A program made the position numbers and the translations under genes. This document shows positions 1,291 through 32,207 of a stretch of DNA of 32,207 nucleotides, piece by piece. This DNA comes from a virus. The notes below the pieces were generated by a model. That model ran no database searches and was not told where the DNA came from. It saw nothing but the letters and a program-made list of their open reading frames with translations. The stretch spans positions 1 to 32,207 of IMG/VR virus record IMGVR_UViG_3300009163_000113; one strand, written 5' to 3'. The number at the start of each line of letters is the position of its first letter. Positions within the stretch are counted from its first letter, which is position 1.

Positions 1291-1316
1291 CATTATAGGC
1301 GTTGTTAATCCTACGA
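1291..1316 (-). promoter_or_regulatory. 26-nt promoter-like element, copy P1
   Basis: On the minus strand this reads TCGTA, 14 nt, a perfect TATAAT at 1297-1292, then G. It is one of four copies with identical spacing in the left 11 kb (others at 9321-9346, 10445-10470 and 10892-10917). It overlaps the TAG stop of the replication gene. P1 and P2 differ at only 2 of 26 positions. No TTGACA-like box is visible 17 nt upstream of the -10 box, so TCGTA may replace the -35 box or bind an activator. Confidence 0.7.
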
Positions 1317-4300
1317 CTCTACAAACAAATCAAAGGATCCGTAGTAGTCAATTGCATTAAGCGCGTTTTCACGAAGTTCTTCAAAATATCGCATGTCAAT
1401 TTCTAAAGGGTCAAAGTTACTCATCCGACTTTGCGCAACTTCACGCTCAATCCAACGATATCCTTTAGTCCCTGCGACTGCGTATTTCTTGTCGTCTTTA
1501 ATACGCCAAAGGTTTGCCCCATTATTAACAACAGGAACAAAGCTACCTGTGCGTCCAACGTGAGTCATTTCGCTAACATCTACCGTGGCCAATGGAGGCC
1601 CATAATCCAAATACATTGCTCCTTGCGTAACGCTTTTAGTCTCACACAAGTCATCGAACGTTGGTTCCTCATTCGAGAACAACGTCTTGAATACATATGG
1701 GTGTTGAAATTGTGCCCCGACAGCGTGCCAGGTACCCTTTTCCCGCGCAATATATACCGCATCGTTAACCAGACAAAATTTGTCGTATGTGTTTTCAATC
1801 TCAAATACATAGCCATACTGGTCTCCAAAATCAATGATAAAGTCGAGAATTTCTTTTGTTGCGTTTGGAACTTTAATTGAGTCTGTTTTAATGTGTGCTA
1901 CGGTAAAGCCTTTGTTCATGACTGCATTCTTTAAGTCAATCATAAATAAAGCACCACGTTTCGCAACAATGTTATCAACGTTCTTTACGTCACGAAACGC
2001 GTTACTAAATTTAGCGCTAGTCAAACCGTACACAATGTTAATAACAATCTTTAGCGCGTAAGAAAGGCCCTCTGTATTTGCTGAGTTTTCATCGAGGTAT
2101 TTTGAAAGTTTACCTCCGAGCAAATTTCGAGCCTTGTCCCAATCTTTATGTTTGATTGAAAGTCGGGCTTCAGTTAACTCATTGAACCGCTGTGTATATG
2201 GCCCAAACAGGTTAAGCATCCGAATTGAAGTCGGGTGCATACTGGCTACGTCCAATACCGTGACGTTCTCGTAGATTCCTGGATCAGAATATACATAGCC
2301 GCCTTCTCCAACTACTTCTCCCATATATGTTGACTCTTTACCGTCAAATTTATACCCAGGAAACCGTTCTGACAAGTCGGTGTACACAAAGCTCTTTTGT
2401 GGGTACTTCTCGTCGCCAAATACAATCTTAGTTGTATGGTTCTGAGTTGTGTGGTTTACAGTCAAGCCAGACAAGTCAGCTAGAATCTCACGAGCAATAA
2501 AATCTTGCTTACGAGACTCAAAGACTACTTCGGTTGCAACAACGTCGTTAACGCAATAGTCAACTACTTTAGGCCAAAGGTCTTCTGGCACTGGTTCATC
2601 CCAAGGTAAATCCATTTCCATGTGATGAATACCAAGCTCAATTTCAAACTTTTTAAGCCCTTGCTTCTTTGAGGAGAAGTCGTAAATATCAGCATACGAC
2701 AAGTTGTAAGCTTCTCCAAATAAGCCGCCGTCATTAGTCGTGATAATCTTTTTACTCAAGTTATAAAGTTCCTCGTTTGAGTAACCTAAATAACGAGCGT
2801 ACAAAATATGATTGTCGTACCGTCGATTGTTAAAACCAACTAGCCTCAACGCAAATAAAGGTTCAATCTCTAATGGGGTTGGGTTTACTATCCGAACAAC
2901 TTCCGGTAAACCTTGATACTTCCAACACACAATAAACAAGTTAGGATATACCTCAACGTCAAAGAACACTAAGGGTTTGTCATTGTTGGTTACGGCCGGC
3001 ATTTCGGTTTTACCTATAAACTGCATTTTTTGTACAACTTTAATACACGCAGCCGATTGGTTTGTGCTGCTTGCCGCAAAAGCTAACATCTTTGGTCGCA
3101 AATCTTTTAGATCGTAGCTCAAATCTGAATTATAAGCATCTTCTAATATCTTATAAATAAAATCAATAGAAGATTTGGTCCCAGGATGAATTTCTTTCTT
3201 TAAGTTCCGCCCAATTATGTCACGAAGAGACTTTTCACTTTTAATATTTTTATTATCAAGCATCTTAACTTCCTTCTTTGGTAGGCCGCTGCTAATTTGT
3301 GCAATATCTAAATCGTTACATAAAGTTAATTTACGGCGTAGTGAGCTGTCGCCAAGTAATGTTTTTATCTCAATCCCTGGGCTGTATACAGAAGATAACT
3401 CTTTTACATCGCCCATATACAAATAGTGCAAATGTAGTCCACTACCGCTTTTGCTAACTTCACTGTATGTTGGAGGCCAACTAGACGCAGCATAAAGATT
3501 TAACTCAAGGTCTTTGTTGCCATCTTCGTCAACTAAGTCAAAGTCAATGACAATATGATTTTGCTTAAGCTTAACAAAATGCAATTTAGACGTGTCTAGG
3601 TCAGATAAAACACTAGCAATGTTTTCCCACTTCTTACCAGGATATCCGCTTTCTTTACCGTACTGTGCGGGTTGCCCAGCGCAAAGAGCGTCTAGGTTTG
3701 ACTTTGTTTCAGTCAAGTTAATTGCATTAGACGAAGCCAATATAGCAATTGACGTTGAATTTAATTGTTTAAACCCAGAGTAATAACTCCGCAACGAAAC
3801 TTTGTCTATATCAATTCTGTCATGAAAATGCACAAAGTAATTTCTTAGTTCCTCTCGGAATTTATACTGAGGCATAACACGTTCAATGCCAGTATCTGTG
3901 CAGTATTCCTTGTAAAGCTCGTAGGCTTGCTTTAACGTAATACCATCTTGCTTGACAAACACGTCGCAATATGCTTCAATGTAATTGTAGAAAATATCAG
4001 TTTGAAGCATCATCTCAAGCGGCTTGTACGAGTTGTAATAATTTTTACCCATTTTATTATACCGTTTAAGGCATTTGTGGGCAATCGCGCCTAACTCAAA
4101 ATCAATTTGTTGCGTAAGCTTTAAATATGATTCTGAGTCAACTTTTACTCCAGTTGGATGCACATCAATCAACCGACGAATAATACCGCTTTTTGCATCA
4201 GATATCTTTACTGGTTGGTTAGTACCCATTAGCAAAAATGCATTAACGCGAGCAGTATAACTAGGCTTGTACTTTTCGTTCATTGTCATGTCTTCGTGCG

Positions 4301-5045
4301 AAATTATTGAATTTAATTTTGTGTTATCATCAATCTTAGATAAATCGCCATCGTGCTGAATTGCAACTAACGGATTTGATCTAAATACTTCAGTAGAAAA
4401 TGATCCATTTGCGCTGCCTAAAGCCTTTGCGTCAAACATAACAACATACCCAACAAATAAATCTTGTATGATGTTTAGTACTGTTGATTTACCACTACCA
4501 GCAGGTCCATAAAATACCAGGAACTTTTGAATCTTTTTTGAGTCGCCCGATACTATTGCACCAATAGCCCACTCAATTTTAGCAAGTTCGTCTGGCGAAT
4601 ACAACACAGACATTAATTGGTCCCAAGCTTTTGTTGGACCGTCTTCTAGTGAATATGGAAGTCTTTTGCTTGCATAATCAGTCTTCTTAATATCTGTATT
4701 AGCAAACGTAAGTCGCTCATCAAGTGGATGACTATTGTCACTAATGTTTTGCATGTAATTGCGAAACGTACTCCAAATTTTAGTATTGAAGGATTTAAGG
4801 TTCTTTACTTTATACTCGGTTCCTGTTTTTTCTTTTTTTTCACGCGCGTATCGGTGCAGATCTTCATCCACCAATCTCTGCACATCATACTCATCAGTAG
4901 ACCATAACTTTGTTTGTTCGTCCCATATAGCATAAAAGGAACGTCCGCGTACCATTAAATCTTTTGATCGTCCAATTGTCCAATCGGGATATACCTGAAG
5001 AGGGCCGTTTTTTTGTTCTGCAACGCTGATGTTATAAAAATCCAT
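1311..5045 (-). CDS. Multidomain replication protein: SF3 helicase, AEP primase, exonuclease and family B DNA polymerase
   Basis: This 1244-residue protein appears to join several replication activities in one chain. Residues 1-150 are of unknown fold. An SF3 helicase module follows: Walker A GPAGSGKS at 180-187, an acidic B strand near 226-236, a sensor-like FLLMGTNQP at 270-278, and an RR arginine-finger candidate at 290-291. An archaeo-eukaryotic primase-like module follows: DFD at 501-503, SGSGLHLHY at 533-541 and IEIK at 558-561. A 3'-5' exonuclease follows: DVEVYP at 696-701, GFNNRRYD at 737-744 and YCVND at 830-834. The polymerase has motif A DVASMHPTSI at 932-941, motif B K999-xxx-N-xx-YG1007, and motif C with KTDS at 1053-1056 where DTDS is usual. 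The start is preceded by AAAGGAGGG. These assignments come from motifs only. The polymerase and helicase modules are firm; the primase module is strong but less certain. The usual primase-then-helicase order is reversed here. Confidence 0.9.
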   Translation of the reverse strand: MDFYNISVAEQKNGPLQVYPDWTIGRSKDLMVRGRSFYAIWDEQTKLWSTDEYDVQRLVDEDLHRYAREKKEKTGTEYKVKNLKSFNTKIWSTFRNYMQNISDNSHPLDERLTFANTDIKKTDYASKRLPYSLEDGPTKAWDQLMSVLYSPDELAKIEWAIGAIVSGDSKKIQKFLVFYGPAGSGKSTVLNIIQDLFVGYVVMFDAKALGSANGSFSTEVFRSNPLVAIQHDGDLSKIDDNTKLNSIISHEDMTMNEKYKPSYTARVNAFLLMGTNQPVKISDAKSGIIRRLIDVHPTGVKVDSESYLKLTQQIDFELGAIAHKCLKRYNKMGKNYYNSYKPLEMMLQTDIFYNYIEAYCDVFVKQDGITLKQAYELYKEYCTDTGIERVMPQYKFREELRNYFVHFHDRIDIDKVSLRSYYSGFKQLNSTSIAILASSNAINLTETKSNLDALCAGQPAQYGKESGYPGKKWENIASVLSDLDTSKLHFVKLKQNHIVIDFDLVDEDGNKDLELNLYAASSWPPTYSEVSKSGSGLHLHYLYMGDVKELSSVYSPGIEIKTLLGDSSLRRKLTLCNDLDIAQISSGLPKKEVKMLDNKNIKSEKSLRDIIGRNLKKEIHPGTKSSIDFIYKILEDAYNSDLSYDLKDLRPKMLAFAASSTNQSAACIKVVQKMQFIGKTEMPAVTNNDKPLVFFDVEVYPNLFIVCWKYQGLPEVVRIVNPTPLEIEPLFALRLVGFNNRRYDNHILYARYLGYSNEELYNLSKKIITTNDGGLFGEAYNLSYADIYDFSSKKQGLKKFEIELGIHHMEMDLPWDEPVPEDLWPKVVDYCVNDVVATEVVFESRKQDFIAREILADLSGLTVNHTTQNHTTKIVFGDEKYPQKSFVYTDLSERFPGYKFDGKESTYMGEVVGEGGYVYSDPGIYENVTVLDVASMHPTSIRMLNLFGPYTQRFNELTEARLSIKHKDWDKARNLLGGKLSKYLDENSANTEGLSYALKIVINIVYGLTSAKFSNAFRDVKNVDNIVAKRGALFMIDLKNAVMNKGFTVAHIKTDSIKVPNATKEILDFIIDFGDQYGYVFEIENTYDKFCLVNDAVYIAREKGTWHAVGAQFQHPYVFKTLFSNEEPTFDDLCETKSVTQGAMYLDYGPPLATVDVSEMTHVGRTGSFVPVVNNGANLWRIKDDKKYAVAGTKGYRWIEREVAQSRMSNFDPLEIDMRYFEELRENALNAIDYYGSFDLFVES

Positions 5046-5056
5046 AAAGCCCTCCT

Positions 5057-5617
5057 TTAATATATACCGTGTTCAACAAGGTACGCACAAAACTGGTACC
5101 AAAGTTCTACTTTAGTTTGATCTTTTTTCGCACTATTGATTGGTAACATTCCACCAAGTCCTTTTTTAGTATAAGTGCGCCATACAAATATGTTTATTAA
5201 TTCGTGTAGATAATCAAGAAGTTTTTCTGATTGTTGAGATGGTAAATCTATAAACAAAGCATCATTAAACTGAGCAATTTCTAAATTGGTTAAAAATATC
5301 CAAAACCAATCACGTTCAGAAATACTAGTATCAAAAGCAGCTCGTCTTGTAAACGCAATTAACATTTCTAAAACAGAGCATCCTAAATATACCCAATCTT
5401 GATCTTCATCTATCCGAAGTTGGATAAAAAATTCTTTACGGATATCCAACCCATCTGCTGCTCTATTATCATCGCCTGAAACAAGCCACACAAATTCAGT
5501 TGAGTGTAGGGTTCTTAGCAACGTATAGAACGTTAAAGATGGAGTTGGATTATCCGTAAAGGCAACCTTAGTATAAAGCCAATTGAAATATACTTCTTCT
5601 ATTGGCCGTTCACTCAT
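5057..5617 (-). CDS. Conserved phage protein of unknown function, upstream of the replication gene
   Basis: This gene encodes 186 residues with no membrane segment. Notable stretches are YFNWLYTKV near residue 10, LLRTLHSTEFVWLVSGDDNRAADG near 33-57, LEMLIAFTRRAAFD near 84-97, FWIFLTNLEIAQFND, and GLGGMLPINSAKKDQTKVELWYQ near the C-terminus. I recognise this mosaic (N-terminal YF-WL, D-NRA-DG, LEML-A--R, FW--L-NL, GGLFPL--DQ--VE-WYQ) as a widespread phage and mobile-element family with no known function. It ends 11 nt before the replication gene start and begins in a TAATG overlap with the gene before it. This tight coupling suggests shared expression with replication, though its role is not shown. 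Confidence 0.8.
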   Translation of the reverse strand: MSERPIEEVYFNWLYTKVAFTDNPTPSLTFYTLLRTLHSTEFVWLVSGDDNRAADGLDIRKEFFIQLRIDEDQDWVYLGCSVLEMLIAFTRRAAFDTSISERDWFWIFLTNLEIAQFNDALFIDLPSQQSEKLLDYLHELINIFVWRTYTKKGLGGMLPINSAKKDQTKVELWYQFCAYLVEHGIY

Positions 5618-6245: not shown

Positions 6246-7097
6246 TTAGATTTTATCGTAAATAACCCCATCGACATTAAAGTCTAGGAGAATACTTCTT
6301 TCTGTTCCATTAAGAAATCGACTGTTAGATGCTTCAAACATCCCAAAGTCAATGTAATTATCGCCTGCCTGGTCAACAACCCAGCCAACAACTTGACCTG
6401 CTGATGAACGCTCAAGACCAAGCGCATCGTAAGCCTCGTTAAGAAACACGTGCCCACGTGAATGGAGCAGATGATTTAAATAGTTTTGCTGGCATTGAAC
6501 ATAAATGCGGTTCATTTCTGAATCTTTTTGCCACTGCGTAGACACTTCGTCAAAGAACCGCGCATAAACGGACCACGTGTTTGGATCTGCTGTGTGCGCT
6601 AATTGTTTAACGCCGTCAACAACAATCTCTTTTGATGTAATAGAATGGTACAAATCATGCTCGCGCTCTTTGCCAACATCTCCACGAACACGGTTACGGT
6701 ACTCTCCATAAGCCTGTGAGAGGCCTGCGTAGGCCGCTGTAAGCGCTGTATTTCTACGAGTTAAGGCAACGTGCGATCCAGTAAGTGCGCTTATAGAAAC
6801 AACACCTATGACGACTGCTGGGGTGTAAAGTTTTGCAACAATTGCTGCATTCTGAGAATATGCACGAACAAGTTGCTTTGTGTCATTTGATGTAGTTGGA
6901 TCAGCTTTAATTCTATTGACGTCATCGTGCATGTCGTCTAATTTATCTGACAAAGTAAGCGTTGCACGGCACGCTAACACAACGCTAGTTACTACTCCGC
7001 CAATACCAGCACCAAACATAATATGAGGTAAGTGCTTATGGAGAATAATTGCTGTTTTTCCAATTTTTACTGTAACTCCAGCTGGAACTTTAATCAT
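6246..7097 (-). CDS. DUF6353-like membrane protein, paralogue 1
   Basis: This 283-residue protein has two predicted membrane segments (about 26-46 IMFGAGIGGVVTSVVLACRA, and about 90-110 LYTPAVVIGVVSISALTGSH). These flank a short helical loop. A helix with the pattern TALTAAYAGLSQAYGEYRNRV and a basic-acidic GKEREHD segment follow. The C-terminal half is soluble, with VGWVVDQAGDNYIDFGMF and a final LDFNVDGVIYDKI strand. Order and motifs match the protein at 9347-10087, so the two are paralogues. DUF6353 proteins are phage-conserved with unknown function. It is followed by the anchored protein at 5617-6237. Cell-envelope remodelling or exclusion of other phages is possible; there is no direct evidence. 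Confidence 0.8.
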   Translation of the reverse strand: MIKVPAGVTVKIGKTAIILHKHLPHIMFGAGIGGVVTSVVLACRATLTLSDKLDDMHDDVNRIKADPTTSNDTKQLVRAYSQNAAIVAKLYTPAVVIGVVSISALTGSHVALTRRNTALTAAYAGLSQAYGEYRNRVRGDVGKEREHDLYHSITSKEIVVDGVKQLAHTADPNTWSVYARFFDEVSTQWQKDSEMNRIYVQCQQNYLNHLLHSRGHVFLNEAYDALGLERSSAGQVVGWVVDQAGDNYIDFGMFEASNSRFLNGTERSILLDFNVDGVIYDKI

Positions 7098-9346: not shown

Positions 9347-10087
9347 TCACGCCACTCTAACGTAATTGTAGGAAAACGCAAGACACGGTCGATTATCATC
9401 AGACATCACTGTAGAGAAGTCAAGGTTTAATTGTTTGTCTACATGCCAGCCAAAAACACTTGAGTTTGTTGTATACGGCAAACCTACGTCATAATAAAAA
9501 TCATTAAGCGTTGCTGTACTTTCTCGGAATAACTTAGCATTGATATTGTTTTGTGTTTGTCTAAGTTTTTCCATATCGCAATGGAAATATCGGCCAGTAT
9601 ACAATTCGCAACAAAGAACATCGCCGTTTCCTGACAAAATAAGACCGTGCGGTTGCGGAGGACTATTTCGAACGTGGTCTTCGGCAATACTGTCGCGAAT
9701 CTTCTTTTCTTTTCCAGTACCAAGAGCTTCTAATGTCTTCGCTTTGTACTCACTAAACGCATGTTCGCTTAATGAATATGCTGTAGTAAGTGCTGTTGCT
9801 TTGCGCGACAACACTGTTGTTGCCCCAATAATAGAAACAATTGTTACTGTGCCTGAAATGGCCGGCGGAATATAAAGTTTCCATACTGCTTTAACCGCTT
9901 CTTTTCCATCTACTTTCTGTGCAGTTAAACGTTCTTCTTCTTGGATAATATAAGCAGCTTTAAACGTTGCTTTAGCCGTTAAATATGCAGTAACTATCGT
10001 TCCACTAATTCCAAACGCAGTAAGAATTGACGAACTGTTGCTACTAATTAACTTTTCAACTTTAGTAAATATAATGGGTAGTGGCAT
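9347..10087 (-). CDS. DUF6353-like membrane protein, paralogue 2
   Basis: This 246-residue protein repeats the plan of the protein at 6246-7097. It has a first membrane segment near residues 17-38 (SSSILTAFGISGTIVTAYLT), a charged loop, a second membrane segment near 70-92 (LYIPPAISGTVTIVSIIGAT), a TALTTAYSLSEHAFSEYKAK helix, GKEKKIRDS, and a soluble C-terminal part with SSVFGWHVDKQLNLDF and a last FSYNYVRVA strand. The middle is about 30 residues shorter than in paralogue 1. AAGG lies 8 nt upstream of the ATG. It follows the 59-residue membrane gene by 8 nt. Function is unknown; two-copy occurrence suggests that paired subunits or two variants are needed. Confidence 0.8.
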   Translation of the reverse strand: MPLPIIFTKVEKLISSNSSSILTAFGISGTIVTAYLTAKATFKAAYIIQEEERLTAQKVDGKEAVKAVWKLYIPPAISGTVTIVSIIGATTVLSRKATALTTAYSLSEHAFSEYKAKTLEALGTGKEKKIRDSIAEDHVRNSPPQPHGLILSGNGDVLCCELYTGRYFHCDMEKLRQTQNNINAKLFRESTATLNDFYYDVGLPYTTNSSVFGWHVDKQLNLDFSTVMSDDNRPCLAFSYNYVRVA

Positions 10088-25422: not shown

Positions 25423-25878
25423 CTATGGCTTTTTTGCCTGTTTTGTTATTCCTCTTGCCTTTGCCGATCGTATTTCTTTTATTGTTCGTTTTCCATACTT
25501 TCGCGCTAAACGGTTTCCAACAACTCCACCAGCAATAGCACCTCCAACAAGAGCAGCAGCACCCGCTGTAGCTGCTGTAGCAGAAGTTGCTACAAGTCCA
25601 GCTTTAACTAAGGTAAATTTACCAGTTGTAAGAAGTACGCCTTGTGCTGCGGTGCTTCCAAGATGAGCTGCACCGAATGTCCGAAGACGGCGTTGATTTG
25701 CGTATCTACCTAATCCTTTTTTGGTATATTTTTTTTCTGTAAGCCCACGTTTAACCGCTTTATCAGTTCTTGCTTGAGATCTAGGAGTTGACTTAGCTGC
25801 GGTAACGCCCCACTTCATACCCTTAACGCCTGAGTGTTCTAAAATATCACTAACTAAAATGTTGCCCATATTTTCCAT
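25423..25878 (-). CDS. Basic head-region protein with one HSGVKGMKWGV tag and a Gly/Ala-rich hydrophobic core
   Basis: This 151-residue protein starts MENMGNILVSDILEHSGVKG and continues MKWGVTAAKSTPRSQ. The tag HSGVKGMKWGV is at residues 15-25. A very basic region follows (TDKAVKRGLTEKKYTKKGLG), then a hydrophobic Ala/Gly-rich segment of about 50 residues (FTLVKAGLVATSATAATAGA through GGAIAGGVVGNRLARKYGKR), then a basic C-terminus KARGITKQAKK. The tag recurs in structural proteins of many Gram-positive phages. The hydrophobic segment suggests that it could meet the membrane, for example after DNA injection as an internal head protein. It lies between terminase and portal. AAAGGG lies 7 nt before the ATG. 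Confidence 0.75.
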   Translation of the reverse strand: MENMGNILVSDILEHSGVKGMKWGVTAAKSTPRSQARTDKAVKRGLTEKKYTKKGLGRYANQRRLRTFGAAHLGSTAAQGVLLTTGKFTLVKAGLVATSATAATAGAAALVGGAIAGGVVGNRLARKYGKRTIKEIRSAKARGITKQAKKP

Positions 25879-28097: not shown

Positions 28098-29150
28098 CTA
28101 CCTAGCTAACATAGTTCCTGGTAACGGTGCTGGAAACGATGGGGTTGGCGTTAACTTTTTATAGCCTTTAACCCCACCTAAACCTTTATTAACCGCTTGG
28201 TTTAAAGTATTAGTAACTAGTTGTGTTCCCACTGTATTTACTGACTTTGTTCCAATATTACCCAAAAGTTTTCTAATAGTTCTTTTGCCTTGCGCTTTTG
28301 CAGGTTCAGTTAATGTACTATACTTGCGCTCAAGTTCAATTCGCTTAATCGCAGTTTCTAATTCCTGGGTTGTCATTTTGTGAATTTTGGCGTTTGCTGC
28401 GGAACGATGTTCATTACGCCCTGCTTTAGCTAAAGCACGTGAATTTGCCCTATTTACTTTTCTAGCGGTTGACTTTTCGGCGCTGCTAGCTCGCACCTTA
28501 GTAATAACACCCCACTTCATGCCTTTTACGCCTGAGTGCTCAAAGAAAGCAGCTACATCAAATGCGTCTTCTGAATGCGTTAAATCTATTGGGGCAAGGT
28601 CCATAGCAGTAAAGAATCCATTATTGTCTACTGTTAAATCAAATACATAAGTGTCGTCAGGAAAAGGTTGATCCATTTGCGCGTGCGAAACATTACCAGG
28701 AATGTTTTTAACTCTAATACGGTATGCTCCATTGGAGTCAAAAGCTAACTCTGCTTTCATCTTACCAGATGGACTAGTCCCGTGAACTTCTTTTACTGCA
28801 CGAGTAACAGCTTCATCTTGTAATTTAAGAACATCTTTAAAGTACTGCTCTTTAAGTTTTGGGTTTGCCGACAAATTTTTACCTTTGTACTGTGGGCGCT
28901 TATTTAATTCAGGTAAATGTTTATTATTCATCTCATTTGCTGTGTTATTGTGAACGGCTATTGCGCCTTTTGTTGTGTAAATACCCTTGAGCCACTTTTT
29001 ATCAGCTTTTTTAAGTTTTTTTACTGCCTGTCGTTGTTGCCGTGAAGTACCTGCGCTACTAGTATTAGTAACGCCCCACTTCATACCTTTTACGCCTGAA
29101 TGCTCAAAGAAAGCAGCTACGTCAAACGGTTTATCATCATTCTCGTTCAT
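28098..29150 (-). CDS. Head-region protein with two HSGVKGMKWGV tags
   Basis: This 350-residue protein has the identical 18-residue segment DVAAFFEHSGVKGMKWGV at 10-27 and again at 198-215. Each copy starts a basic, helical part. The first is followed by RQQRQAVKKLKKADKKWLKG and a domain at about 60-195 with NEMNNKHLPELNKRPQYKGK and DDTYVFDLTVDNNGFFTAMD. The second is followed by RASSAEKSTARKVNRANSRA, KIHKMTTQELETAIKRIELE and a C-terminal TGTQLVTNTLNQAVNKGL-like stretch (about residues 305-325). It looks like a fusion of two tag-bearing proteins. The matching DNA segments are 50/53 identical. It lies between the connector-like gene and large terminase. The KMTT-ELE--IKRIELE pattern occurs next to this tag in other phages. 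Function unknown; scaffold or internal protein is a guess. Confidence 0.75.
   Translation of the reverse strand: MNENDDKPFDVAAFFEHSGVKGMKWGVTNTSSAGTSRQQRQAVKKLKKADKKWLKGIYTTKGAIAVHNNTANEMNNKHLPELNKRPQYKGKNLSANPKLKEQYFKDVLKLQDEAVTRAVKEVHGTSPSGKMKAELAFDSNGAYRIRVKNIPGNVSHAQMDQPFPDDTYVFDLTVDNNGFFTAMDLAPIDLTHSEDAFDVAAFFEHSGVKGMKWGVITKVRASSAEKSTARKVNRANSRALAKAGRNEHRSAANAKIHKMTTQELETAIKRIELERKYSTLTEPAKAQGKRTIRKLLGNIGTKSVNTVGTQLVTNTLNQAVNKGLGGVKGYKKLTPTPSFPAPLPGTMLAR
28510..28562 (-). repeat. Direct DNA repeat, copy a (tag segment)
   Basis: This 53-nt segment encodes most of the second DVAAFFEHSGVKGMKWGV copy. It matches the segment at 29074-29126 at 50 of 53 positions, and its three mismatches change no residue in the shared 18 residues. 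The identity at DNA level points to a recent duplication or gene conversion. Confidence 0.85.
29074..29126 (-). repeat. Direct DNA repeat, copy b (tag segment)
   Basis: This is the partner of 28510-28562 and encodes the N-terminal tag of the same protein. A third, more diverged version of the tag occurs at 25808-25840 in the next tag-bearing gene, with conserved CCCCACTTCAT at its plus-strand start. Confidence 0.85.
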
Positions 29151-31081: not shown

Positions 31082-32207
31082 TTAGGTCACTAAAATATAC
31101 GAACCTTGGTTCGGGTCATACACCTTAAGTGTAGTAAGAGGTACCCAAACTGCTCCATCAAATATGCTGATACCTGTGTTGATCCACGTGGTTCCATTCC
31201 AGCGCTTTAAATATCCGTTGGAGTTGATGCCGTAGTTAAGACGACCAGTTAGAATGTCTGTGCCGTCAGTAACAGCTAAAACGCCAGTGGCGCCAAATGG
31301 AATATACAGAGCTACAATTGTTGCTGTATCTGTAGCATCATTGACAGACAGAACCGCAATTTGACCGCGCGTACCAACAATAATACTTGTGTCGGTTGCG
31401 TCAGTTCTTGCTACTGTTGCAAAGAATGGGTGTGAACCAGAAATAACGCTTGTGTCTGTAGCATCTGTTACAGACAGAGTAGCCAAATATGCTTGCTGTC
31501 CTGTTATTACGCTTGTGTCGTTTGTATCTGTTACAGACAGAACAGCCAAATATGCTTGTTGGCCTGTTATCACGCTTGTGTCGTTTGTATCTGTTACAGA
31601 CAGAACAGCAGGATATGTTAATGTACCTGTTATCACACTTGTGTCGGTAGCATCTGTTTTTGATACTGCAGCCAAATATGTTATCGTGCCAGTTATAGTA
31701 CTTGTATCTGTAGCATCTGTTACCGCTAAAGAACTAGCATGTCCTATAAGTCCTGCGGAAACGCATGTGTCTGTTGCGTCAGTTACAGCCACAACGCCAA
31801 CGTAGTTTGACGGAGTAAAGAATATAGTTATGACACCGGCGTCTACAGCATCAGTTACATTGACTGTGGTTTGAAACGGAAATATACCAGTTGCATTACC
31901 TGTGTCTGAAGTATCTGTTACAGATACAACAGCTAGATATGGTAACGTAACTGTTATAACACTTGTGTCTGTAGCATCTGTTACAGACAGAACAGCAATA
32001 TAAGGTAGTGTAACTGTTATAATACTTGTGTCTGTTGCGTCGGTTGTTGCAACTACTGCTGATACTGCCGAAGAAGTAAATGAGCCTGTTATAATACTTG
32101 TGTCTGTAGCATCTGTTACGGACAGAACAGCAGGATATGTTAATATACCTGTGATAGTACTTGTGTCTGTAGCATCTGTTATTGCAACTACTGCTGATAC
32201 TGTAGAA
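31082..32207 (-). CDS. Repeat-rich fibre-like protein, 5' end beyond the right edge
   Basis: The frame is open from the TAA at 31082-31084 to base 32207, at least 374 residues, with no start needed inside the window; a GTG at 31792-31790 is internal. Units of 21 to 24 residues repeat about 15 times, with the pattern (V/I)TDATDTS(V/I)ITGTLTYPAVLS. The TDATDT core varies as TDTNDT or TDAVDA. The last 85 residues are a separate domain with NSNGYLKRWNGTTWINTG and a closing VWVPLTTLKVYDPNQ. Such Thr/Asp/Ser/Val-rich repeats form beta-rich fibres. A tail-fibre, head-fibre or adhesion role is likely. The gene lies upstream of the packaging genes. Repeats of this kind can change copy number and may serve variation in surface binding. 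Confidence 0.8.
   Translation of the reverse strand, partial: STVSAVVAITDATDTSTITGILTYPAVLSVTDATDTSIITGSFTSSAVSAVVATTDATDTSIITVTLPYIAVLSVTDATDTSVITVTLPYLAVVSVTDTSDTGNATGIFPFQTTVNVTDAVDAGVITIFFTPSNYVGVVAVTDATDTCVSAGLIGHASSLAVTDATDTSTITGTITYLAAVSKTDATDTSVITGTLTYPAVLSVTDTNDTSVITGQQAYLAVLSVTDTNDTSVITGQQAYLATLSVTDATDTSVISGSHPFFATVARTDATDTSIIVGTRGQIAVLSVNDATDTATIVALYIPFGATGVLAVTDGTDILTGRLNYGINSNGYLKRWNGTTWINTGISIFDGAVWVPLTTLKVYDPNQGSYILVT
31320..32207 (-). repeat. Tandem 63-72-bp repeats within the fibre-like gene
   Basis: The DNA repeats follow the protein units: most are 63 bp, some 72 bp because of 24-residue units. Two neighbouring units around 31480-31610 are nearly identical. The plus strand shows TCTGTAGCATCTGT or TTTGTATCTGTTACAGACAG at each turn. 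The array runs into the right edge. Near identity of adjacent units suggests recent duplication or unequal crossing over. Confidence 0.85.

Follow-up and report, generated by a model that had tools for sequence, protein, structure and literature searches.

A gene at positions 1311..5045 of an uncultivated virus record raises the question of how much of a replication machinery a single polypeptide can carry. The preliminary description read the gene as a fusion of SF3 helicase, AEP primase, exonuclease and PolB polymerase, placing most of a replisome on one chain, and implied that the arrangement was new. The DNA analysed (the window) is a linear IMG/VR virus record of 32,207 bases and is probably a fragment.

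A single open reading frame

The preliminary description stated no strand for the gene. The open reading frame lies on the minus strand, as do all features of the window described below: it starts with ATG, is uninterrupted and encodes 1244 aa; the plus-strand frame across the same positions contains many stops. In a profile search phrog_4210 ('DNA polymerase') covers residues 1-1243 with a score of 1918 bits. A motif script located every motif at the residue previously claimed for it, and the four modules stand in the order first proposed: helicase, primase, exonuclease, PolB. Conservation was scored on an alignment of 49 homologues, including GP55 of Lactococcus phage 1706, the closest characterised homologue; the catalytic motif residues are invariant. 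As judged from sequence, the motif set together with the end-to-end profile match is far beyond what chance would deliver.

The mixed domain content is the sole hint that the polypeptide could be an assembly chimera, or a sequencing artefact fusing separate genes, and we consider this vanishingly improbable. An IMG/VR search, from which 47 homologous loci were fetched, returned another metagenome contig (L002) with a copy 94% identical over residues 1-1242. The same single-ORF layout recurs in more than 30 further contigs, and most non-truncated IMG/VR loci have one open frame. A tblastn search with the replicase hit 369 phage records, and in 252 the match spans 80% or more of the protein. With so many independent full-length homologues, a chimeric assembly is out.

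Helicase, primase and polymerase modules

The first 430 residues (3756..5045) comprise an N-terminal domain and an SF3/D5-type helicase module. The latter contains a Walker A motif, GPAGSGKS (residues 180-187; 4485..4508), with an invariant lysine; a Walker B region, PLVAIQHDGDL (225-235; 4341..4373), in which D232 is invariant; sensor 1, GTNQ (274-277; 4215..4226), with invariant N276; and an arginine finger pair, R290/R291 (4173..4178), both invariant and lying within IIRRL at residues 288-292. An AlphaFold model of residues 1-440 (pLDDT 84.8) recovered the SF3/D5 fold on which the original reading depended: the best PDB match in Foldseek was the SaPI5 primase-helicase 7ola (E 2.6e-11, TM 0.6), and the other top matches were the mpox (MPXV) E5 / D5 helicases, the African swine fever virus PrimPol and the C-terminal region of NrS-1. 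Pfam DUF5906 scores above its cut-off in this module, Pox_D5 matches weakly at residues 353-404 and TIGR01613 (the C-terminus of P4-family primases) matches below its own cut-off. Walker A, Walker B, sensor 1, arginine finger and a D5-like fold, which together define an SF3 helicase, are all found in the sequence and the model.

An AEP (PriS-like) primase core follows at residues ~440-600 (3246..3728). It bears motif I, DFD (501-503; 3537..3545), of the DxD form, motif II, GLHLHY (536-541; 3423..3440), of the HxH type, and motif III, IEIK (558-561; 3363..3374); residues D501, D503, H538, H540, Y541, E559 and K561 are invariant. Because a PDB sequence search with this part gave no usable match, it was judged by fold comparison. 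The model of residues 425-692 (pLDDT 86.9) matched NrS-1 PrimPol (6jon/6a9w) and pRN1 ORF904 (1ro0) with E-values from 9e-6 to 3e-4, the best of them at probability 1.00; nothing else in the Foldseek search with this segment was significant. The AEP PrimPol fold expected here was thus recovered, with low TM-scores (0.27-0.39, normalised by query length); a likely reason is that only the AEP core corresponds, the helical part being unlike the targets.

That helical part is a domain in its own right, absent from the preliminary description, whose list of four modules is otherwise borne out. It occupies residues ~601-680 (3006..3245), between the AEP core and the exonuclease–PolB part, and matches the aHD of GP55; an HBD or PriL is lacking. 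Four helices are modelled at residues ~604-673 (model positions 180-191, 199-215, 223-234 and 240-249). In GP55 the aHD is essential for priming (PMC12205980).

The 3'-5' exonuclease domain spans residues ~690-850 (2496..2978), where phrog_1252 matches at 674-883. It has ExoI, DVE (696-698; 2952..2960), and, placed by motif script and alignment, ExoII, NNRRYD (739-744; 2814..2831), and ExoIII, YCVND (830-834; 2544..2558). The ExoII stretch, NNRRYDNH, runs from 739 to 746 and is directly preceded by GF at 737-738; the script reads ExoIII as YCVNDV (830-835). The remainder, residues ~851-1244 (1314..2495), is the PolB polymerase domain. It matches E. coli DNA polymerase II (3k57) in sequence, Pol II structures aligning with residues 908-1057; Pfam DNA_pol_B matches weakly, and the NCBIfam Pol II models fall below their own cut-offs. 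Motif A, DVASMHP (932-938; 2232..2252), and motif B, KIVINIVYG (999-1007; 2025..2051, by script and alignment), begin where they had been placed, as does motif C (1053-1056; 1878..1889). The last, however, is not canonical: it reads KTDS in all 49 sequences, with an invariant lysine where the usual DTD has its first aspartate. With ExoI-III and motifs A, B and C all present, the motifs identify this part as a proofreading PolB. Since the AEP core sits in the same chain, there is no need to invoke protein priming of the TP type or piPolB insertions.

Likeness to GP55 and the proposed mechanism

Zhang et al. (2025) purified GP55 and showed it to have helicase, primase, polymerase and 3'-5' exonuclease activities (PMC12205980). 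GP55 unwinds DNA in a UTP/dTTP-dependent manner, primes with RNA at 5'-CCAAC and can copy ssM13 de novo; it is a dimer, and its priming and extension work in trans (PMC12205980). The window protein is homologous to it from end to end: 38.8% identity over 98% by tblastn, and 40.7% across 1216 aligned positions. The two agree in all four modules and in how these are ordered, as well as in the aHD and the KTDS form of motif C; they differ in length (1317 aa in GP55) and in the helicase half, which has diverged. By part, identity is 34.8% in the helicase, 52.8% in the PriS-like core, 41.2% in the aHD, 50.0% in the exonuclease and 43.9% in the polymerase. The AEP core is therefore the most GP55-like part and the helicase half the least (33-35%, and 23% over residues 331-430). 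All seven residues linked to GP55 activities are present: K189, D509, Y655, F667, D712, E714 and D949 correspond to K186, D503, Y644, F656, D696, E698 and D932, respectively. Six of the seven are invariant in the 49 relatives; the exception, Y644, is Y or F.

The set of domains, their order and the presence of the residues on which GP55 activities depend are matters of observation. By analogy with GP55 we infer that the window protein has the same activities, although its nucleotide and priming-site preferences may differ. The N-terminal SF3/D5-type helicase would most likely unwind the fork and drive strand displacement; the AEP core and the aHD would most likely make short RNA primers; and the C-terminal PolB would most likely extend them, its own exonuclease proofreading the product. 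Within a dimer the domains may cooperate, primers made by one chain serving its partner. That the gene encodes a replicase of the kind named HelPrimPolB (see below), homologous to GP55 and probably working by this mechanism, we hold to be almost certain. The points that speak against it are the divergence of the helicase half, the low TM-scores of the AEP part, the lack of 5'-CCAAC enrichment described below and the missing first aspartate of motif C, although GP55 shares KTDS and is active. Because the helicase half is the least GP55-like part, neither UTP/dTTP dependence nor the dimeric state can be assumed for the window protein.

Were the AEP module a structural or DNA-binding relic, the protein would be a helicase and polymerase only, taking its primers from transcripts or from the host DnaG, which is available in the cell. 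The modest Foldseek similarity of the AEP part, and the fact that primase activity is here a prediction, leave some room for this reading, yet none of the 49 aligned homologues departs from D501, D503, H538, H540, E559 and K561, the core is the part closest to GP55, and replacing the equivalent of D503 in GP55 (D509A) yields a primase-deficient enzyme (PMC12205980). We regard a relic as very improbable and retain the AEP core as the predicted primase.

The GP55 priming site, 5'-CCAAC, occurs 93 times in the window, compared with 56 in dinucleotide shuffles, yet 95.3 are expected from the 3- and 4-mer content, against which it ranks 291 of 512; relatives are alike. With no enrichment once 3- and 4-mers are considered, the excess was rejected as an effect of composition.

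The preliminary description also noted that no separate helicase or primase is seen in the window. Pfam searches of the window indeed gave no match to Helicase_C, DnaB_C or the DnaG zinc ribbon. We extended the search to 18 records, namely the window and 17 relatives, seven of the latter being cultured phage genomes. DnaB_C and the DnaG zinc ribbon were found in none of the 18, with working controls, and so the statement stands for DnaG; it does not for helicases, an SF2-type gene of ~400-540 codons (recognised by Helicase_C, usually with a score under the curated cut-off) being present in 15 of the 18. Examples of this gene match phrog_62 ('DNA helicase'), as does gp67 of phage 1706, which the Pfam Helicase_C search missed. 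With 15 of 18 records carrying one, its absence from the window most likely reflects the limits of a 32-kb fragment. In the relatives the SF2-type gene lies close to genes for nuclease and annealing functions and to genes labelled 'RNA-dependent RNA polymerase'. The last of these labels is attached to a large genome-end gene in two relatives (L050, 39649-42276, phrog_4291; L052, 27083-30172), which we presume may be a single-chain phage RNA polymerase, YonO-like.

The frequency of the SF2-type gene bears on the role of the SF3 module, which could be mainly an origin-melting initiator or loader, with the fork unwound by the separate helicase. The finding that GP55 without its helicase domain is still capable of de novo synthesis on ssDNA (PMC12205980) is in keeping with such a division of labour; however, helicase activity and strand displacement by GP55 both need the SF3 domain, and the 1706 counterpart of the SF2-type gene has been called RNA-helicase-like (PMC12205980). 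Moreover, the nuclease and annealing neighbours of the SF2-type gene suggest a role in recombination or repair. On balance we think an initiator role unlikely, and favour the SF3 module as the helicase of the fork.

A known replicase type and its candidate partner

The implied novelty of the arrangement does not survive comparison with the literature. Kazlauskas et al. (2020), citing their own 2016 survey, named a group HelPrimPolB within an EpsilonN-like PolB clade, in which SF3 helicase and PrimPol domains are fused N-terminally to a PolB with a divergent motif C (PMC7544198). The window protein has the same fusion layout and a divergent motif C, and we found no difference from the group; its membership was judged by architecture, motifs and homology to GP55. 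The claim that the usual order of primase and helicase is reversed holds: the N300 domain of NrS-1 PrimPol resembles the AEP core, and the C-terminal region of NrS-1, like SaPI5 7ola, resembles the helicase module, but both these proteins have the primase before the helicase and no PolB attached, and the accessory domain of NrS-1 is an HBD in place of the aHD. Placing most of a replisome on one polypeptide is likewise supported. The gene is real and correctly read, and is an ordinary, unannotated member of the HelPrimPolB / GP55 kind, an enzyme type named in 2020 and with activity proven in vitro in 2025; the find is not new.

Most homologues in the phage collection come from phages of Gordonia, Arthrobacter, Streptomyces and Rhodococcus, and are usually labelled 'DNA primase/polymerase', an annotation carried by hundreds of phages, or 'DNA polymerase'. 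These proteins match the window protein over its full length and differ by sequence divergence only; those of Gordonia phages such as Petito and Tanis are 60-62% identical to it. The record of Rhodococcus phage ReqiPepy6 notes a two-domain primase/PolB make-up and a similarity to a Lactococcus phage. GP55 homologues have been described as predominantly from human-associated phages (PMC12205980), whereas most full-length homologues in our collection are from phages of soil actinobacteria; both sets are biased by sampling.

Two variants were observed. In Bifidobacterium phage BitterVaud1 (L054, 2001-6631) the reading frame of the homologue is broken at about residue 920, just before motif A, into two ORFs that flank a third, of 213 aa, which no Pfam or PHROG profile matched; an intron, a mobile insertion or a split gene could account for the interruption. 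Streptomyces phage Bing has, in addition to a full-length replicase, a small gene annotated as an AAA-ATPase (L055, 1986-2441) that shares 25.7% identity with a portion of the SF3 region and has the look of a paralogous fragment.

Immediately upstream of the replicase in the window lies a gene for a protein of 186 aa (phrog_4678; 5057..5617). In 50 loci its median distance from the replicase is 26 bases, and in the phage collection the two genes occur in equal numbers of records for six genera: 95 in Arthrobacter, 55 in Gordonia, 54 in Streptomyces, seven in Curtobacterium, and four each in Rhodococcus and Microbacterium. Searches of Lactococcus phages 1706 and P162 did not detect it. The protein has 22 invariant positions and gave nothing usable in Pfam or PDB searches. 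This linkage suggests that the phrog_4678 protein and the replicase share a function. Tentatively, it is possible that the actinophage replicase has here a dedicated partner, the phrog_4678 protein acting as a processivity, loading or ssDNA-handling factor.

Other genes of the window are recorded for completeness. Two phrog_2152 paralogues (6246-7097 and 9347-10087) possibly reflect a duplication; the first is a DUF6353 gene, a relative of which lies upstream of the replicase in 49 loci. Two genes among the structural genes (25423-25878 and 28098-29150) encode between them three copies of the short peptide EHSGVKGMKWGV (DUF7211), two of these in one protein. The gene at 31082-31792 encodes a protein of ~22-residue tandem repeats (VTDATDTSVITG...) that no Pfam profile matched and that may be a fibre or surface protein.

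Allowing for sampling bias in both collections, these data show that cultured phages of soil actinobacteria very commonly carry four-in-one replicases of the GP55 type as well, as do many IMG/VR contigs. For their biology the phrog_4678 gene provides a concrete candidate partner. If the proposed partnership is true, then actinophage replication would depend on the replicase and one accessory protein and involve neither DnaB nor DnaG, and tractable phages of Gordonia, Arthrobacter or Streptomyces could serve as an in vivo test of this proposed self-contained two-subunit replisome.
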